A DNA stretch of 64,000 nt from Streptomyces sp. NRRL F-2580. GTDB lineage: Bacteria > Actinomycetota > Actinomycetes > Streptomycetales > Streptomycetaceae. A program made the translations under genes and the position numbers. The stretch's first letter is position 1. Each line of letters starts with the position of its first letter. The notes below the pieces were generated by a model. The model was not told where the DNA came from. It searched no databases and was given only the letters and a program-made list of their open reading frames with translations. Positions 9,559 through 19,887 of the stretch are shown here, in pieces. Where the stretch lies: positions 1-64,000 of the forward strand of contig NZ_JOIR01000007.1 in NCBI RefSeq assembly GCF_000720115.1, read 5' to 3'.

Positions 9559-12177
9559 TCAGGACGGGTCGCCGTACTGGAGGCCGCGTCCGTTGGTGCC
9601 GACATAGACGCGGCCGTAGGTGTCGGGGTCGCCGGCGATGACGCCGACGCCGCCGATGCTGCCCCACTGGTGGGCGTCGTCGTTGACGCGGAGCCAGGTG
9701 GCGCCCTTGTCGGTGGAGCGGAAGACTCCGGTGACGTCCTTGACGGTACCGATCAGGTACAGGGCCTGGTAGTCGGCGCCCGGCGCGGCCTTGCCGAAGC
9801 CGAGCGCGGAGCCGGACCGCACCGTGGTGAGCGTGGTGAAGGTGCGACCGCCGTCGGTGGAGTGCAGCAGCCCCTTGTCGCCGCCGGAGATCCACAGGTC
9901 CCCGGCGATGCCGGGGACGGCCGCGAGCCGGCCGGCGGGCAGGTTGGTGGCGCGGGCGGTGAAGGTCGCGCCGCCGTCGGTGCTGGCGTAGAGCGTGCCG
10001 TCGGCCAGTGAGTAGAAGGTCTTGGCCGAGGAGCGGTCGGCGACGACCACGGCGCCGGTGCCCAGGCCGCTGACCTTCGACCAGCTCGCCCCCTTGTCGG
10101 TCGAGCGGTACGGGGCCTGACCGGCCTCGGTCCAGACGATGGCGGAGCCGTCCGCCGAGAGCGCGACATGACCGCTGTCGGCGCTGCCCACCGGCTCCGA
10201 CTTGAAGCCGTTCCAGGTGCTGCCGCCGTCGGTGGAGTAGGCGCCGTCCTGCGCGCCGCCACGGCCGACGCGAACCATCGCCGAGGGATTGGACTGGGCG
10301 AAATCGATGTCGGTGCTGGTGATCATCATCGGGTTGTCCAGCCGCCCGGCGGGCACCTTCGTCAGGGAGTCGTGGCGGAAACCGCCCAGGTCACCCATGG
10401 CGGAGATGACGGTGGCGCCGCCGGGCGGGGCGACCACGTCCATCAGCGAGGTCTCCTCCAGCCCCCGGGACCCCACGATCCAGTGGCTGGTGCCGCCGTT
10501 GTCGGTGGCGCCCGCGTCCTTGCTGCGCCAGATGCCGCTGCCGGTGCCGTACAGCACGTGCCCGGAGTCGAAGGGGTCGATGGCCAGGGCGGTCATCCAG
10601 TGCCCGATGCCGGTTCCGACGTAAGGCGCACCGGAGGCGTCCCGCTCGGATTTCGCGGCCTGTGCCTTCCAGGTCGTGCCGCCGTCGGTGCTCCGGTACA
10701 GCTCGTCCTGGGGCCACCAGCGGTGGAGGGTGGTGACCATCACCGTGGACGGCTTCTGCGGGTCGACGGCCAGACCGGAGAACCCGTAGTTGCCCTGGGA
10801 CGGGGAGACGTTCTTCCACGCCCCGCCGGCGGGCGTGTACTTCCACACCGAACCCGCCGTCGCATCGCCGATGGAGTTGGCGTACGCCAGGTACAGCGAG
10901 CCGTCACCGGAGACCACGCCGTGCTGCGGTATCTCGCCGGTGGGCTGCCCGGAGACGGCCTGCCAGGTGCTGCCGCCGTCGGTGGAGCGGTACAGGGAGG
11001 TGGACTTGTCGGCGACGCCGACGTAGACCGTCCTGCTGCCGGCCGGGCCGTACGTCACGAAGGTGACGCCCGCGCCGCTGCTCGCCCCGTCCTTGACGGG
11101 GAACGAGGAGACCTGACTCCATGTCACGCCGTGGTCGGTGCTGCGCCACAGGCCGTTCTTGCGGGTGCCCAGCAGCAGGGTGCCGTTGTCCGCGGGGTTG
11201 ACCGCCAGCCGCTCGCCCGCTCCGCGGCCGTGCTCGTTGGCGCCCAGCTTGAACGGCAGAGCGGTGCGCTGGAAGGTGCGGCCCCGGTCCGTGGAGCGCA
11301 GGAGCTCGGCGTTGCCCGCCCAGCCGTTGGTGTAGGTGCCCGCCGCGGCGTAGAACCGGTTGGGGTCGACGGGGTCGGTGGCCAGCGAATCGATGCCCAG
11401 CAGGTTCCAGTCCTTCTCGCCGACCCAGTCGGTGAGCGGGATCCACTGCTCGGCCGCGGCATCCCAGCGGTAGGCGCCGCCCATGTCGGTGCGCGCGTAC
11501 AGCAGGCCCTTCTCGCGGGGGTTGAACACCAGCCCGGTGACGTAACCGCCGCCCACCACCTGGGCGTTGTTCCACACATACGGTCCGGTCGCGGTCGCCT
11601 GGGTCTTGGCCGTCTTCACCAGCTTCCACTGCTGGTTGGTGCTGCCCTTGCCCTGGTACTGGATGACTGCCGCGCCGTCGGCCGTGGACTCTCCGGAGAC
11701 GTCCAGGACCCGGCCGCTCCTGCGGGAGGTGAAGGTGACGGCGTCGGAACCGCTCACATCGTCGATCCGCCACTCCTGGGAAGTGGAGGAGCTGTCGGTC
11801 TGCTGCTCGGCAGCGGTCGCCTGGGCGGTCGAATCGCCCGCTATGCCCAGCACTTTGCCGCTGTTGCGGTTCACCAGCTCGTAGTAACCGTCCCCGGCGG
11901 CTCTCAGCTTCCATTGCTGGTTGGCGGTGTTCTGGTCGGTCCACTGCTGGATACGGGTGCCGTCGGCGGTGGAGAAGCCGTTGACGTCCAGCACCTTGCC
12001 GCTGCGCACGGAAACCAGCCGGTAGTAGGCATCGCCGTCGACCGTCGCCGCTTGTGAGTCCTCCTGCACGAACAGGAGGTACGGCACGACGATGGCGGGG
12101 ACGCCGAGCAGCAGGCTGGTCGCGGTCCAGCGACGGCGGTGACGCCCGCGGCGCCCGCCGTTCATGGGGTTCTTCAT
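9559..12177 (-). CDS. Secreted ricin-lectin/GH74 xyloglucanase (872 aa)
   Basis: An extracellular endo-xyloglucanase/xyloglucan hydrolase by family. Residues 1-43 are an Arg-rich signal sequence (RRGRHRRRW, then a hydrophobic core, cut near SQA-AT). Residues 45-187 are an R-type (ricin) beta-trefoil with three QxW-type repeats (IQQW, SQEW, NQQW). From about 198 to the end is the GH74 double seven-bladed propeller with BNR/Asp-box repeats ([24 protein letters not shown]). The strand [11 protein letters not shown] carries the likely catalytic Asp231; the second is probably in the [12 protein letters not shown] region. It starts at ATG 12177 with AAGGAGA upstream. It diverges from the sigma-CBM gene at 12572, and a terminator follows. 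The lectin is N-terminal, whereas many Streptomyces GH74 enzymes carry a C-terminal cellulose-binding module. Confidence 0.93.
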
Positions 12178-12571
12178 GGGGGGTGTTCTCCTTGCATGCC
12201 ACCAGAGGAAAGTGGATCCAGCTACCGGAACGGCCGGACCCGACTCCTTGTGGTAACAGGCCCCGCAAAGGGTTGCCTTGAGCCGGATTCTTTTTCAGGT
12301 CACCTCGTGGTGCGGTAGGCGTTGACCAATGGCCGGGTGGCACTGGTGCCCTTGGTGTCCACGGCCTTGGCCCGGAAGGACACGCGCCCGGATGATCTGT
12401 GGGAGTCGGCCACGGAACACCACCGACAAGCCCACAACGCGCGGTGCCGGGACCTCCAAGTCGGCGCGGGCCCCGTTCCATTGACCAAAACACAGGCTTC
12501 GGCCGCATACCCTTGCCGACGCCAAGGTGCGGCGCCGTACGCGGCGGATCGCTCCCCTGAGGGAGGTCGGA
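12178..12571. other. Divergent promoter region, GH74 / membrane sigma factor
   Basis: 394 bases between two divergent genes, without a coding region. They should hold promoters for both. On the minus strand the block GGCAACCCTTTGCGGGGCCTGTTACC (12253-12278) is a candidate for an ECF-type -35 (GGCAACC) of the GH74 gene. No CebR-type inverted repeat (TGGGAGCGCTCCCA) was found. Confidence 0.4.
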
Positions 12572-14122
12572 ATGGGGCTCATGGATGCGGACCACGCGAG
12601 GTTGGTCGTCGCGGCGCAGGGCGGTGACGATCGGGCGCGCGAGGAGCTGATCGCCGCGTACCTGCCGTTGCTCTACAACATCGTCGGGCGAGCGCTGAGC
12701 GGACATGCCGACGTTGACGACGTCGTCCAGGAAACCCTGCTGCGCGTGGTGCGCGACCTGCCTGCCCTGCGTGCCCCGGAGAGCTTCCGGTCCTGGCTGG
12801 TGTCGATCACCCTCCGCCAGATCCATACCCACTGGCAGCGGCAACGCGCCTTCGCCGGCCGGACCACGGTCATCGACGAGGCGCTCCAGATACCGGACGC
12901 CGGCGGCGAACCTGAGGACCTGACGATCCTGCGTCTGCATGTGTCGGACGAGCGCCGTCAGGTTGTCGAAGCCAGCCGGTGGCTCGACCCGGACCATCGG
13001 GTGCTGCTGTCGCTGTGGTGGCAGGAATGCGCCGGCTTGCTGAGCCGTGACGACATCGCCGCCGCGATGGGGCTCAGTGTCGCCCACGTCGGAGTACGCC
13101 TGCAACGCATGCGCGAGCAGCTGGAACTGAGCCGGACGATCGTCGCCGCGCTGGAGGCCGACCCGCGTTGTCCGCAGTTGGACGAGACCGTCGTCGGCTG
13201 GGACGGTCTCCGCGCCTCGGTGTGGCGCAAGCGGATCGCGCGGCACACCCGCGGCTGCCCAATCTGCATGGCGACGACGACAGAACGGGTTCCGGCCGAC
13301 CTGCTGCTCCTCAGCCTCGCGTCGCTGGCCGTCCCTGCCGGACTCATCGCCGCGCTGGCCGCCAAGGGCCTGCTGTCGGGTACGGCCGCGAGCGCCGCCG
13401 GGCTGGCCACGACACACGTCGCCGTCGGCACGGCGACGGGGGGAGGCGGTCTGCACAGCTCGCTGATCGGCAAACTCTTCGCGGTCACCGCTCATCCGGT
13501 GGCGAGCCTCGCCACCGGCGCGGTGCTCATCGCCGGCACCGCCACCTACGCGACCTGGCCCGAACCGGCGCACCGGGTGCCCAGCGTCATCGCCGCTCCC
13601 ACGGTCGGCAGTCCTACGCCGATCCCGTCGGGCACCACCACGTCGGCCGGACCGACCCCGGTGAGTCCGTCCGCCGTCGCAGGCACTGTTCCGCTGGGCG
13701 CACAGTCGCTGGAGTCCGTGGACGACCCCGCCCTGTACCTGACGTATGCCGACGACTTCGCGACGCTCGGGCGAGTCTCCCCGTCCAGCAGCGCGCAGAC
13801 ACGGCAGCGGGTCACGTTCACGGTCATCCGGGGGCTTGCCGACACGCGGTGCGTCACCTTCCGCGCCGCCGACGGCCGCTATCTGCGCCATCGTGACCTG
13901 CGGCTACGGCTGAGCACCAACGACGGCAGCGAACTGTTCCGTGAAGACGCCACCTTCTGTCCGCAGCCCGGCGCGGTCGCCGGGTCGGTAACCCTGCACG
14001 CGCACAACTATCCCGGATCGGTCCTCCGCCACCGTGACGGTGGCGTCTGGCTCGATGGCTCCGACGGCACTCGGGCCTTCGCCGACCAGGCTTCCTTCAT
14101 CATGCGCGGGGCCTGGGGTTGA
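12572..14122 (+). CDS. Membrane-anchored ECF sigma factor with zinc-finger anti-sigma motif and AbfB/CBM42-like domain
   Basis: A 516-residue multidomain regulator. Residues 10-90 are sigma region 2 (DVDDVVQETLLRVVRDLP) and 125-190 are region 4 (DIAAAMGLSVAHVGVRLQRMREQL). Residues 200-232 carry C200-x24-H225-x3-C229-x2-C232, the ligand spacing of zinc-binding anti-sigma (ZAS) proteins. Hydrophobic segments follow at about 243-264 and 303-328, with a weaker Ala-rich stretch between. Then comes a Pro/Ser/Thr linker (340-375). Residues 385-515 are an AbfB/CBM42-like trefoil (YLRHRDLRLRL, LFREDATFC, VLRHRDGGVWLDG). It is thus a sigma factor with its own anti-sigma finger and a sugar-binding domain. 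It is related to described ECF groups with C-terminal membrane extensions (the ECF52 type). Whether the CBM lies outside depends on whether two or three segments span the membrane. ATG 12572 is preferred (GGAGG five bases upstream) over GTG 12527. Confidence 0.88.
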   Translation: MGLMDADHARLVVAAQGGDDRAREELIAAYLPLLYNIVGRALSGHADVDDVVQETLLRVVRDLPALRAPESFRSWLVSITLRQIHTHWQRQRAFAGRTTVIDEALQIPDAGGEPEDLTILRLHVSDERRQVVEASRWLDPDHRVLLSLWWQECAGLLSRDDIAAAMGLSVAHVGVRLQRMREQLELSRTIVAALEADPRCPQLDETVVGWDGLRASVWRKRIARHTRGCPICMATTTERVPADLLLLSLASLAVPAGLIAALAAKGLLSGTAASAAGLATTHVAVGTATGGGGLHSSLIGKLFAVTAHPVASLATGAVLIAGTATYATWPEPAHRVPSVIAAPTVGSPTPIPSGTTTSAGPTPVSPSAVAGTVPLGAQSLESVDDPALYLTYADDFATLGRVSPSSSAQTRQRVTFTVIRGLADTRCVTFRAADGRYLRHRDLRLRLSTNDGSELFREDATFCPQPGAVAGSVTLHAHNYPGSVLRHRDGGVWLDGSDGTRAFADQASFIMRGAWG

Positions 14123-16920
<2,798 letters not shown>

Positions 16921-17453
16921 CCTGCCCGGTCCGCGGTGATCGCGATTCGGGGCGGCCTGCCAGTGCCGAGACGAGCGGTTTACGGCACGGGCAACTCCAC
17001 CTTCTGACCGATACCCACCGCCTCGAGGAACCCCAGCCGTGCGTCGGCTGGGGTTCCTCCCTTTTGCGGACTTTCATCGCGGGTACGGACCGAAGCACTA
17101 CGACGCCACCGCGGACACCGTGCCTTGGCGATCCGGTCCGACTTCGGCTCGTCCAGCCCGGCCAGGAGGCCGCAGTGCCGAGCAGGGCGGTGAGCACGGA
17201 GTGACCCGGCGCACCAGGGGCTTGTCGCCGCGCACTCGGAGCTCCTCCGCGCGGCATCCGTGCCGCCCAGCCCCATTTCCCCGCACTCCCGCGCCCAGTG
17301 AGCGGACCGATACGGGACGCAGCTGCCCGGCCGCCCCGGAAGACCCGCCCGTGCCGGCTTCCTCGTCATCCCCGGGGGGAACCGGCGGCAACCTTTTCGC
17401 ATCCTGCGGCGACCAAGGAGTGCACCTCGACTCGAATCTTCGAACGGACGGAC
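16921..17453. other. Intergenic region before the expansin gene
   Basis: 533 bases with a terminator at 17025-17059. The frame of the expansin gene stays open from 17298, but those residues do not look coding. The rest should contain the expansin promoter; no motif could be assigned. Confidence 0.45.
17025..17059 (+). terminator. 15-bp hairpin with T-run after the GH10-GH62 gene
   Basis: GAGGAACCCCAGCCG, loop TGCGT, exact complement, then CCCTTTT. One of the few hairpins here followed by a T-run, about 105 bp after the hemicellulase stop. Confidence 0.85.
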
Positions 17454-18413
17454 ATGCAGACTGCACGGCAGGCCGCGCGGCAGCGCCGGCGTAGACACAG
17501 GCTGATGAGGGGAACGGCGGTGACGCTGACCGCCGCGGGCGTCCTCGTCTGCCTGATAACGGCCATGCTCCCCGGCCCCAAGGCCGAGGTCGGGGCAGAG
17601 GTGGTGGCCCCCGCCGCCACCCAGGCGGAAGCCACGCCCTCGACCCCGACGAGCCCCGCGCCCCCGACGAGCCCCGCGCCCCCGACGGACAGCTCGCATG
17701 CCGCGGAAACCCCGACTGCGGCCGTCGGTACCACCACCGCGGCGCCCCAGCCTTCGGTGAAGGCACCCCCGCAGGCGGCGTCCAGCACGGCACCGTCGGC
17801 AGGCCGCATCCAGCCCGACACCACCTACAAGGGCGTCGCCACCGCCTACGCCGCCGGCGACGGCAACGGCGCCTGCCTGTTCGGCCCGAGCGACGACCTC
17901 ATGATCGCGGCGATGAACGCCACCGACTACGAGTCGTCCAGGGCGTGCGGCGCTTACGTGCGCGTCCGTGCCGCGAGCGGCGCCTCGATCACGGTCCGGA
18001 TCACCAACGAGTGCCCACTGCCCTGCGCCCCCGGGCAACTGGACCTCAGCGAACAGGCCTTCGCCAAACTGGCCGATCCCAAGCTCGGCCGCATCCCGAT
18101 CACCTGGAGCCTGCTGAGCCCCCAGACGTCCCGCACGATCTCCGTCCGGTACAAGGCCGGGTCCAACCCCCACTGGTGCGGCATCCAGGTGATCGACCAC
18201 CGCAATCCGGTCGCACAGCTGGAGGTACGCACCACCAAGGGCTGGCGGAGGCTGCCTCGTACCGAGTACAACTACTTCCTCTCCGCCGACGGCAGCGGGT
18301 GCGGCGGCGCGATGAGGATCACCGACATCCACGGGGAGCAGCTGACGGTCGACGGGACCGCGCTGCTGCCGAACGTCGCACAACCGACCCGGGTCCAGTT
18401 CGCTCCGCACTGA
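17454..18413 (+). CDS. Bacterial expansin (EXLX-type) with N-terminal linker
   Basis: A 319-residue secreted protein predicted to loosen cellulose networks without hydrolysis. Residues 1-40 are an Arg-rich signal sequence with one hydrophobic stretch (AVTLTAAGVLVCLITAM). Residues 45-120 are a Thr/Pro/Ser/Ala-rich linker. Residues 122-220 form the double-psi beta-barrel domain (YKGVATAYAAGDGNGACLFG, MIAAMNATDY, CGAYVRV, NECPLPCAPGQLDLS, whose Asp is the equivalent of the essential expansin Asp). Residues 221-319 are the CBM63 cellulose-binding domain (PHWCGIQVIDHRNPVAQLEV, GWRRLPRTEYNYF, MRITDIHGEQL). The start ATG 17454 has only a weak AACGGACGG upstream. ATG 17503 is an alternative. The start is the least sure part. 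Its neighbours are hemicellulases and sigma factors, consistent with plant biomass attack. Confidence 0.9.
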   Translation: MQTARQAARQRRRRHRLMRGTAVTLTAAGVLVCLITAMLPGPKAEVGAEVVAPAATQAEATPSTPTSPAPPTSPAPPTDSSHAAETPTAAVGTTTAAPQPSVKAPPQAASSTAPSAGRIQPDTTYKGVATAYAAGDGNGACLFGPSDDLMIAAMNATDYESSRACGAYVRVRAASGASITVRITNECPLPCAPGQLDLSEQAFAKLADPKLGRIPITWSLLSPQTSRTISVRYKAGSNPHWCGIQVIDHRNPVAQLEVRTTKGWRRLPRTEYNYFLSADGSGCGGAMRITDIHGEQLTVDGTALLPNVAQPTRVQFAPH

Positions 18414-18541: not shown

Positions 18542-19075
18542 ATGGTCCTCGATGACGCGTCCGCGGAGTTCCACCACTTCTTCGAACGCCACTACGCCGA
18601 ACTCGCCCGGTTCGCCCATCTCCTGACGGGCGAGGCGGACGGTGCCGACGATCTGGCCGCGGACGCCCTGATCGCACTGTGGCAGCGCTGGGACCGGCTG
18701 CGCCAGGCCGAGTACCCACTCGCCTACGCGCGTGGCGTGGTCGCCAACCTGGCACGGTCACGGATCCGCAGCGCGGTTCGCGAGCGCCGCCGGATCGCCC
18801 TGTTCTGGTCCCGCGGCGCGGAGCCGTTGGACGGTCCGGACGTGGCCGCCGTGGTGGACGTGCGTACTGCTCTCGACCGGTTGCCGTTCCGGAAGCGGGC
18901 ATGCGTGGTCCTGCGGCACGCCTTCGACCTGTCGGAGAAGGACACCGCTCTGGCGCTCGGAATATCGGTCGGTACGGTGAAGAGCCAGACCTCGAAGGGG
19001 ATGGCCGAACTGGAACGGATGCTGGGCAGCACAGGAGCAGCCGGGGAACTGTTGGCGGGGAGGAGGAGCCGTTGA
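18542..19075 (+). CDS. SigE-family ECF RNA polymerase sigma factor (177 aa)
   Basis: A small sigma factor. Region 2 is at residues 10-80 (FFERHYAELARFAHLLTGEADGADDLAADALIALWQRW). Region 4 is at about 100-160 (RTALDRLPFRKRACVVLRHAFDLSEKDTALALGISVGTVKSQTSKGMAEL). It belongs to the actinobacterial SigE-family ECFs usually paired with a membrane protein. Here the partner gene starts at TTG 19072, overlapping this gene's stop by four bases, so the two are translationally coupled. The ATG at 18542 lacks a close ribosome site (GGAGGGGG is about 14 bases away). Its target genes are unknown, but the neighbouring expansin and hemicellulases are candidates. Confidence 0.9.
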   Translation: MVLDDASAEFHHFFERHYAELARFAHLLTGEADGADDLAADALIALWQRWDRLRQAEYPLAYARGVVANLARSRIRSAVRERRRIALFWSRGAEPLDGPDVAAVVDVRTALDRLPFRKRACVVLRHAFDLSEKDTALALGISVGTVKSQTSKGMAELERMLGSTGAAGELLAGRRSR

Positions 19076-19887
19076 ACGAGGAGCTCACCAGGCGGCTGCA
19101 CGCAGCCGCCGAGGCCCACCAGCCCGACCGCGCCCGGATCCTGGCACGCATGGAACGCGGCATGTCCGGCGCCCCCGCCGACCCCCGCGAGTCATCAGGC
19201 ACGAGGCCCTGGCCCAGGGTCGCGCTCGCCTCCCTCGCCACGGCCGGCATTCTGGCAGTCGGGGGTTTCGCCGTCGCCGCCATCGTCGAGTCCCCGCCGG
19301 ACCGGCCGGACATCTCAGCCACCCCCGCCGCACCGTCCGCTCCGTCTGCGCCGTCCGCGTCCGGGACTCCCCGCCCGACGCCGTCGGCGCCCACCACCGG
19401 TAGCCCGACCGCGCCGGACCGCCCGTCCTCGACGAGCCCCAGCCCTGCGACGTCAGGCAGCGCGGGCTCGGCCCGGCCCGGCAGCGCGCACGTCCAGGAC
19501 GGGCCCCTGTGGTCGGCCGGCTCCTTGGACGCGGGCAGCAACACCTACTGGGCGCAGAGCAACATCACGCTCAAGGCCACCCAGCCGCTCACCGCACTCA
19601 CCCTGGAACTGCGCATCACGCAGACCGGCGGAGTGCAGAGCACCGGCAGTTGGCGGACGCTGCCCGCCGACGACTTCACCGTGACCGTGCAGAACGAGGG
19701 CGGCGCAGTGGTCTACCGCTGGACTCTCAAGCCGGGCCGCACCGTCCCGGCCGGACAGCATGTCTTCGCCGGCCAGTACAACCACGCCGCCGGCGAGCGC
19801 GAGGCCCAGCACGACGGCTACCGCGTCGACGCCAACGGTCCCCGCGGCGCCCTCTCGGTCTGGGGCGGCTTCACCCCGACACGCTGA
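19072..19887 (+). CDS. Membrane partner of the ECF sigma factor, with extracellular domain (271 aa)
   Basis: A single-pass membrane protein. Residues 1-35 are a cytoplasmic helix (RRLHAAAEAHQPDRARILARMERGM) of the kind found in SigE-family partner proteins, presumed to bind the sigma factor. The transmembrane segment is at about 45-66 (VALASLATAGILAVGGFAVAAIV). A 75-residue Pro/Ser/Thr/Ala linker spans the wall. The C-terminal domain at about 145-271 is a beta-sandwich-like domain (GPLWSAGSLDAGSNTYWAQSNITLKAT, TALTLELRITQTGG, ADDFTVTVQNEGG, AGQYNHAAGEREAQHDGYRV). That domain recalls carbohydrate-binding modules, but I cannot name a family. The start is TTG 19072 with GGAGGAG upstream and a TTGA overlap with the sigma gene. 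No zinc-finger motif is present, so any anti-sigma activity would be of another type. Confidence 0.8.
   Translation: MNEELTRRLHAAAEAHQPDRARILARMERGMSGAPADPRESSGTRPWPRVALASLATAGILAVGGFAVAAIVESPPDRPDISATPAAPSAPSAPSASGTPRPTPSAPTTGSPTAPDRPSSTSPSPATSGSAGSARPGSAHVQDGPLWSAGSLDAGSNTYWAQSNITLKATQPLTALTLELRITQTGGVQSTGSWRTLPADDFTVTVQNEGGAVVYRWTLKPGRTVPAGQHVFAGQYNHAAGEREAQHDGYRVDANGPRGALSVWGGFTPTR

Follow-up and report, generated by a model that had tools for sequence, protein, structure and literature searches.

Members of Streptomyces rank among the major degraders of plant matter; how an insoluble polymer is detected outside their cells is, to our knowledge, an open question. A sigma factor gene that adjoins a hemicellulase gene in Streptomyces sp. 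NRRL F-2580 raises the question of whether one protein could perceive such a polymer and switch on the matching enzyme. We analyzed it computationally in a window of 64,000 nt, the whole stretch of DNA studied (contig NZ_JOIR01000007.1, positions 1 to 64,000). The first-pass annotation of this DNA had described a 516-aa open reading frame (ORF) in which a sigma factor is followed by a zinc anti-sigma (ZAS) motif and hydrophobic segments, then by a Pro/Ser/Thr linker and an AbfB-type domain. Its length and coordinates were correct for the ATG at 12572; an alternative GTG at 12527 would yield 531 aa. The gene and its parts are as follows.

12572..14122 (+): sigma-ZAS-TM-AbfB gene, 516 aa, from the ORF, profile searches and relatives
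12635..13126 (+): extracytoplasmic function (ECF) sigma part, residues 22-185, TIGR02937 71.3 bits (cut-off 42.9)
13169..13267 (+): zinc anti-sigma motif C200-x24-H225-x3-C229-x2-C232, kept in 121/121 sequences
13295..13366 (+): hydrophobic segment 1, residues 242-265, V254-P255 invariant, KD 2.3
13475..13558 (+): probable single transmembrane segment, about residues 302-329, from hydropathy and homology to CAP-domain paralogues
13580..13690 (+): Pro/Ser/Thr/Ala linker, residues 337-373, from sequence
13706..14101 (+): AbfB/CBM42 beta-trefoil domain, residues 379-510, Pfam 139 bits and Foldseek

Hydropathy, sequence and Pfam searches confirmed the hydrophobic segments, the linker and the AbfB-type domain in one protein, and the layout proposed for a one-protein sensor, with sigma factor, ZAS motif, membrane segment, linker and AbfB domain in a single ORF, was supported. 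The Pfam profiles suggested as a check agreed in part: AbfB and Sigma70_r2 (54 bits, residues 26-92) matched, whereas sigma region 4 gave a weak score of 15.5 bits, below the cut-off of 25.7, and zf-HC2 had no match in the Pfam search of the 516-aa protein. Assignment to the ECF sigma factors is carried by TIGR02937 over residues 22-185 together with Sigma70_r2. Foldseek matched a weak model to sigmaE (1or7) with E 6.9e-6 but an rmsd of 22 Å. The cysteine-histidine cluster has exactly the annotated spacing, with an upstream ligand preceding Hx3Cx2C as in Class I zinc anti-sigma domains, throughout a 121-sequence set comprising the window protein (P0001) and its 120 best-listed relatives. Both profile and beta-trefoil fold place the C-terminal domain in CBM42/AbfB. 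PF05270 had one match only in the 8.4-Mb genome (E ≤ 0.001), namely this protein, whose Pfam matches include no RsgI-type domain. A sequence search retrieved 3482 relatives at E ≤ 0.001; AbfB and Sigma70_r2 were both present in all of the best 120 of these, for which the organism names given were Streptomyces or Kitasatospora.

The AbfB domain aligns with solved CBM42 structures, including that of RsgI5 (9fnk), and Foldseek matched 9fnk and 3kmv. In the beta pocket of AtAbf43C, arabinose is described as being held by His, Tyr and Asp (PMC12493170). With the pocket mapped by eye, the beta-pocket residues H440 and D459 are invariant in 121/121 of the best-listed set; the Tyr position is occupied by Leu in 120/121, with no Tyr at the same spacing, and the gamma-pocket Asp is replaced by Gly in 103/121. 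One working arabinose pocket is plausible. Family membership and the conserved pocket residues point to an arabinose polymer as the probable ligand, with arabinan or arabinogalactan as possible as arabinoxylan.

Two neighboring genes are relevant to what the sigma factor might control.

14557..16920 (+): GH10 xylanase - ricin-B lectin - GH62 arabinofuranosidase, proposed target (390, 95 and 521 bits)
9559..12177 (-): GH74-like beta-propeller protein with ricin-B domains, divergent (ricin-B and BNR/Sortilin repeats)

Scanning the genome collection gave 63 loci, of which 58 are Streptomyces-type, three are from Micromonospora and two (L063 and L064) are paralogues with other sensors. In 57 of the 58 Streptomyces-type loci, a GH10(-GH62) gene begins behind the sigma gene after a gap of 185-1078 bases (median 389); the exception, L010, has a GH74-like gene in place of GH10-GH62, and L015 and L022 match less closely in their GH62 part. 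A profile search found no AbfB domain in the window's GH10-GH62 enzyme. These loci contain 42 strong GH74-like matches: 38 share the direction of GH10-GH62 and lie downstream of it (27 at a distance of 40-46 bases), and three are divergent, as in the window. The annotated divergent GH74 neighbor was borne out in its orientation; its ricin-B and BNR/Sortilin beta-propeller repeats presumably fit GH74, yet no GH74-named model appeared among the Pfam matches of 9559-12177 (-). Dozens of species share the architecture, the order of the genes and a conserved intergenic block, so the observation goes beyond chance. Elsewhere in the window, a DPBB-domain protein (17298-18413 (+), 44.6 bits), expansin-like by eye, adjoins the hemicellulase genes. 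Beyond it, the region 18542-19887 (+) holds a second, ordinary ECF sigma gene with Sigma70_r2/r4 and, directly behind this gene, a protein with a hydrophobic segment and a C-terminal part with no Pfam match over cut-off; the region is possibly a two-gene sigma/anti-sigma sensor.

The gap between the sigma gene and GH10-GH62 contains a promoter-like site and a weaker copy of it.

14274..14307 (+): promoter-like site TTTTCGTTACG-N17-GCCTCC, proposed sigma target, in the conserved gap block
14218..14246 (+): GTAACG-N17-GCCTCA, a second and weaker version of the site, 61 bp ahead of it

An alignment of 57 gap sequences (56 loci and the window, with L058 omitted for length) contains TTTTYYGTTACG-N17-GCCTCC, and the consensus of the site at window positions 14274-14307 is TTTYYGTTAC-N20-CTCC. 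Scored over 13 positions with spacers of 20-22, the GH10 gap reached 13/13 in 56 of 57 loci and 12 in the other. Whole loci scored 13 in 60 of 63 cases, including L064, where the site precedes a CAP paralogue. The strict pattern was found once in 57 of 63 loci and matched three times in the window's genome, including the window's own site. The conserved block exceeds one promoter in length and includes a second element; in 47/56 loci the site is preceded, at 61 or 62 bases, by a weaker copy, a count biased by choosing the best match within the interval searched. The copy at 14218..14246 may represent a tandem promoter or a site for another regulator. A 51-aa ORF (14405-14560 (+)) has a stop overlapping the GH10 start codon and a start region common to many relatives. 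A leader peptide before GH10 is not claimed; the ORF occurs in only part of the alignment and its length varies.

Upstream of the sigma gene itself, the best site within 500 bases scored 11 or less in 62/63 loci; only the CAP paralogue L064 scored higher, and the AbfB branch thus shows no sign of autoregulation. Alignment of this region revealed a conserved element near the start that is housekeeping-like by eye. The GH74-like gene was set aside as a sigma target in this genome, given that nothing upstream of 9559-12177 (-) exceeded 9/13.

Across genomes, the site is linked to the presence of the sigma factor. Searching 61 genomes for the enzyme returned 30 loci: the window, five with a close AbfB-sigma and 24 from other genomes. 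Enzyme loci in 5/5 genomes with a close AbfB-sigma scored 13, while the best upstream score at 24/24 homologous loci in other genomes was 8-10, which is the random level, in a comparison set where many loci are GH62-type or distant paralogues and the only close GH10 matches without the sigma factor are G016 (72%), G033 (77%) and G011 (internal stop). Random 700-bp stretches scored 7-10 in 389/400 cases; the remaining 11 scored 13, probably because the sampled loci include the site itself. G007, counted among the 24, carries a 45%-identical AbfB-sigma; its site lies before a divergent AbfB-bearing protein, and a GH43-AbfB piece is on the other side. No matching site was found for the 54% relative in G045, which is surrounded by GH26, GH12 and GH30 genes, and no hemicellulase was identified behind the site in the three Micromonospora loci (L053, L056 and L062), where L062 has a repeat protein and L053 a small ORF. 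The linkage to GH10-GH62 that the annotation had drawn from adjacency was strengthened by the 57/58 loci and by a conserved gap site missing at the 24 homologous loci elsewhere.

The motif also extends to other sensors. A pattern of TWACG-N17-GCMTCM was too loose (42 matches versus 38 for the control in eight genomes) and was replaced by TTTYYGTTAN{20,21}CTCC, which gave 36 matches versus one for the reversed control in 61 genomes. We examined the 30 matches with loci; 25 of them stand in front of a related sigma gene, a GH10-GH62, AbfB or CAP gene, or a lyase-like gene. By position, five lie before GH10-GH62 beside an AbfB-sigma, one beside the G007 AbfB-sigma, five close upstream of paralogous sigma genes, two upstream of free CAP genes (one a fragment), eight before alginate-lyase-like proteins (grouped by eye; the one tested matched PF05426 at 40 bits) and four before another family (one tested, no family over cut-off); five have no clear target. 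Counted from the sigma genes, a site is present upstream of 4/36, in a set with two loci entered twice.

Sensors of the paralogues include CAP, Lcl_C, a Pel9A-like beta-helix and domains without a Pfam match. One of the latter (L162, residues about 345-557) occurs in 8/37 Streptomyces genomes, the same eight that have lyase-type sites (Fisher p 2.6e-8 from hand-entered counts, noticed afterwards and with phylogeny ignored). It is also found in the non-Streptomyces genomes G041, G048, G049 and G051, and weakly in G039 and G044, where no lyase-type site was detected. The window's genome encodes one close sigma-ZAS-TM paralogue with a CAP domain (L085 / G000:C34:36358-37170), and no TTTYYGTTA site was found upstream of it. 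We tentatively propose, with slightly less than even confidence, a plug-in family in which one sigma/anti-sigma/membrane chassis and a promoter, TTTYYGTTAY-N~20-CTCC, are combined with exchangeable outside domains that match the controlled proteins. An AbfB sensor would go with GH62 or AbfB enzymes, a CAP sensor with CAP proteins and the unnamed domain with lyase-like genes. As the sensor would match the substrate or a domain of the controlled proteins, it would predict the regulon. Domain sharing is partial, since the window's enzyme is devoid of AbfB and the genes that follow the sites of the unnamed sensor showed no copy of its domain.

Whether the AbfB domain faces outward depends on the number of membrane passes, which the first-pass annotation had regarded as its weak point. 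Two passes would leave the domain in the cytoplasm, with the sigma factor answering imported arabino-oligosaccharides or the domain serving another role. We consider this unlikely, even though segment 242-265 (KD 2.3) equals the later segment in hydrophobicity and AbfB members show no positive-inside bias (Lys/Arg 0.94 before and 1.07 after the last segment, with more before in 0/121). Against it stand the CAP-domain paralogues, where Lys/Arg are richer before than after the last hydrophobic segment in 120/120 (best 120 of 4127), at 8.6 versus 0.8 per 20 residues. Their two segments are joined by a linker with a mean length of 76 residues, of which on average 17.5 are charged or His. This charge distribution fits a single pass with the sensor outside, and CAP domains and S/T/P linkers are usually extracellular. 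Both AlphaFold models (pLDDT 61 and 65) break segment 242-265 near P255, with low confidence there; they contain no membrane helix, are poor and are uninformative for topology, and have short helices at the position of anti-sigma helix 4. In known complexes, an anti-sigma helix after the zinc motif is described as binding sigma region 2 (PMC7406223), and we infer that segment 242-265 is such a helix rather than a membrane pass. Given the missing charge bias and the weak models, the outside location in AbfB members themselves is predicted by homology to the CAP-domain paralogues, which largely answer the worry over membrane parity; the AbfB members give no charge signal of their own.

The site could also be read by another sigma factor or a hemicellulase regulator, the sigma gene merely traveling with the island. 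Room for this is left by a conserved block longer than one promoter, with its second element, by the non-Streptomyces genomes in which the no-Pfam sensor occurs without a lyase-type site (G041, G048, G049 and G051), and by the fact that we infer recognition by the AbfB-sigma. We nevertheless rate it as improbable: the site is missing at all 24 homologous enzyme loci in other genomes, the same pattern precedes paralogous sigma genes, and lyase-gene sites occur in exactly the eight of 37 Streptomyces genomes with the no-Pfam sensor, a post hoc match that ignores phylogeny. Even less probable, in our estimate, is that the AbfB domain serves to attach the cell to plant material without signaling while the sigma factor receives its input, for example redox, through the zinc motif. 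Zinc anti-sigma domains, soluble ones above all, are described as often being redox sensors (PMC7406223), but a redox model does not predict the fit between sensor and enzymes, namely AbfB with GH62, or AbfB with the AbfB and GH43-AbfB proteins in G007, and the pairing of a CAP sensor with two free CAP genes behind such sites.

We therefore return to a one-protein arabinofuranoside sensor whose freed sigma factor transcribes GH10-GH62, a reading that we consider probable and that builds on the computed architecture, conservation, synteny and promoter-like site with its link to sigma presence. Inside the cell, the fused zinc anti-sigma domain, together with the hydrophobic helix behind it, would keep sigma regions 2 and 4 inactive. 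A single transmembrane segment (residues about 302-329) and the Pro/Ser/Thr linker would carry the AbfB (CBM42) domain outside, where it would bind terminal arabinofuranose of arabinoxylan or arabinan. Ligand binding would trigger proteolysis, or a conformational change, that frees the sigma factor; inhibition and proteolytic release are assumed from the protein class. The freed sigma factor would then initiate transcription from TTTYYGTTACG-N17-GCCTCC before the GH10-GH62 gene, so that, in this proposal, contact with the polymer would lead the cell to produce the enzyme for cutting it.

By domain architecture alone (zinc finger, membrane helix predicted by hydropathy and homology, Pro-rich stretch, carbohydrate-binding domain), the protein is of the ECF52/ECF53 type. 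The annotated kinship to these groups stood, and the novelty claim narrowed, as sigma factors of this type with carbohydrate-binding domains were already published (PMC5826349). Reports on ECF52 and ECF53 describe the zinc finger, membrane part and carbohydrate-binding domain, propose proteolytic activation and present experimental validation of the predicted sugar domains as outstanding (PMC5826349, PMC8999054, PMC10766802). SCO4117, an ECF52 member from Streptomyces coelicolor, is similar in having an ECF sigma, zinc finger, TM, Pro-rich stretch and carbohydrate module in Actinobacteria, but its module is described as smart00776 and its regulon as developmental and pleiotropic, with CSGYN-17-SRHA as the proposed motif (PMC5826349); the window protein has instead an AbfB/CBM42 sensor, a GH10-GH62 neighbor and the site GTTACG-17-GCCTCC. 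ECF53 and ECF48 share a C-terminal anti-sigma-like, membrane-bound extension with expected proteolytic removal, and some ECF52/ECF53 members have predicted glycosyl hydrolase or carbohydrate-binding domains; the accounts of ECF53 and ECF48 in these sources give no AbfB example, target promoter or target gene (PMC8999054, PMC10766802). RsgI5 of the SigI/RsgI systems in Clostridium thermocellum likewise displays a CBM42 on a membrane anti-sigma factor, with plant-polysaccharide genes and proteolytic signaling (PMC4711584, PMC12203970; 9fnk), but is part of a SigI-type pair of two separate proteins, unlike the single ECF fusion studied here. IutY from Pseudomonas putida (ECF243) also unites a sigma factor with its membrane anti-sigma part in one protein, from which proteolysis releases the sigma factor; it differs in its siderophore signaling and Gram-negative host, and its description in PMC8999054 mentions no sugar-binding domain. 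Literature searches, with subscription literature mostly outside their scope, found no paper on an AbfB-bearing ECF sigma factor. Within a known ECF52/ECF53 class, this analysis adds the variant with AbfB, its pairing with GH10-GH62 and the promoter-like site.

If this reading is correct, a single protein would read an arabinose polymer and switch on the matching enzyme from a defined promoter, with possible use as a one-gene sugar sensor. It would supply an input-output pair of the kind described as still awaiting experiment for ECF52/ECF53 (PMC10766802), and regulons would become predictable from sensor domains.
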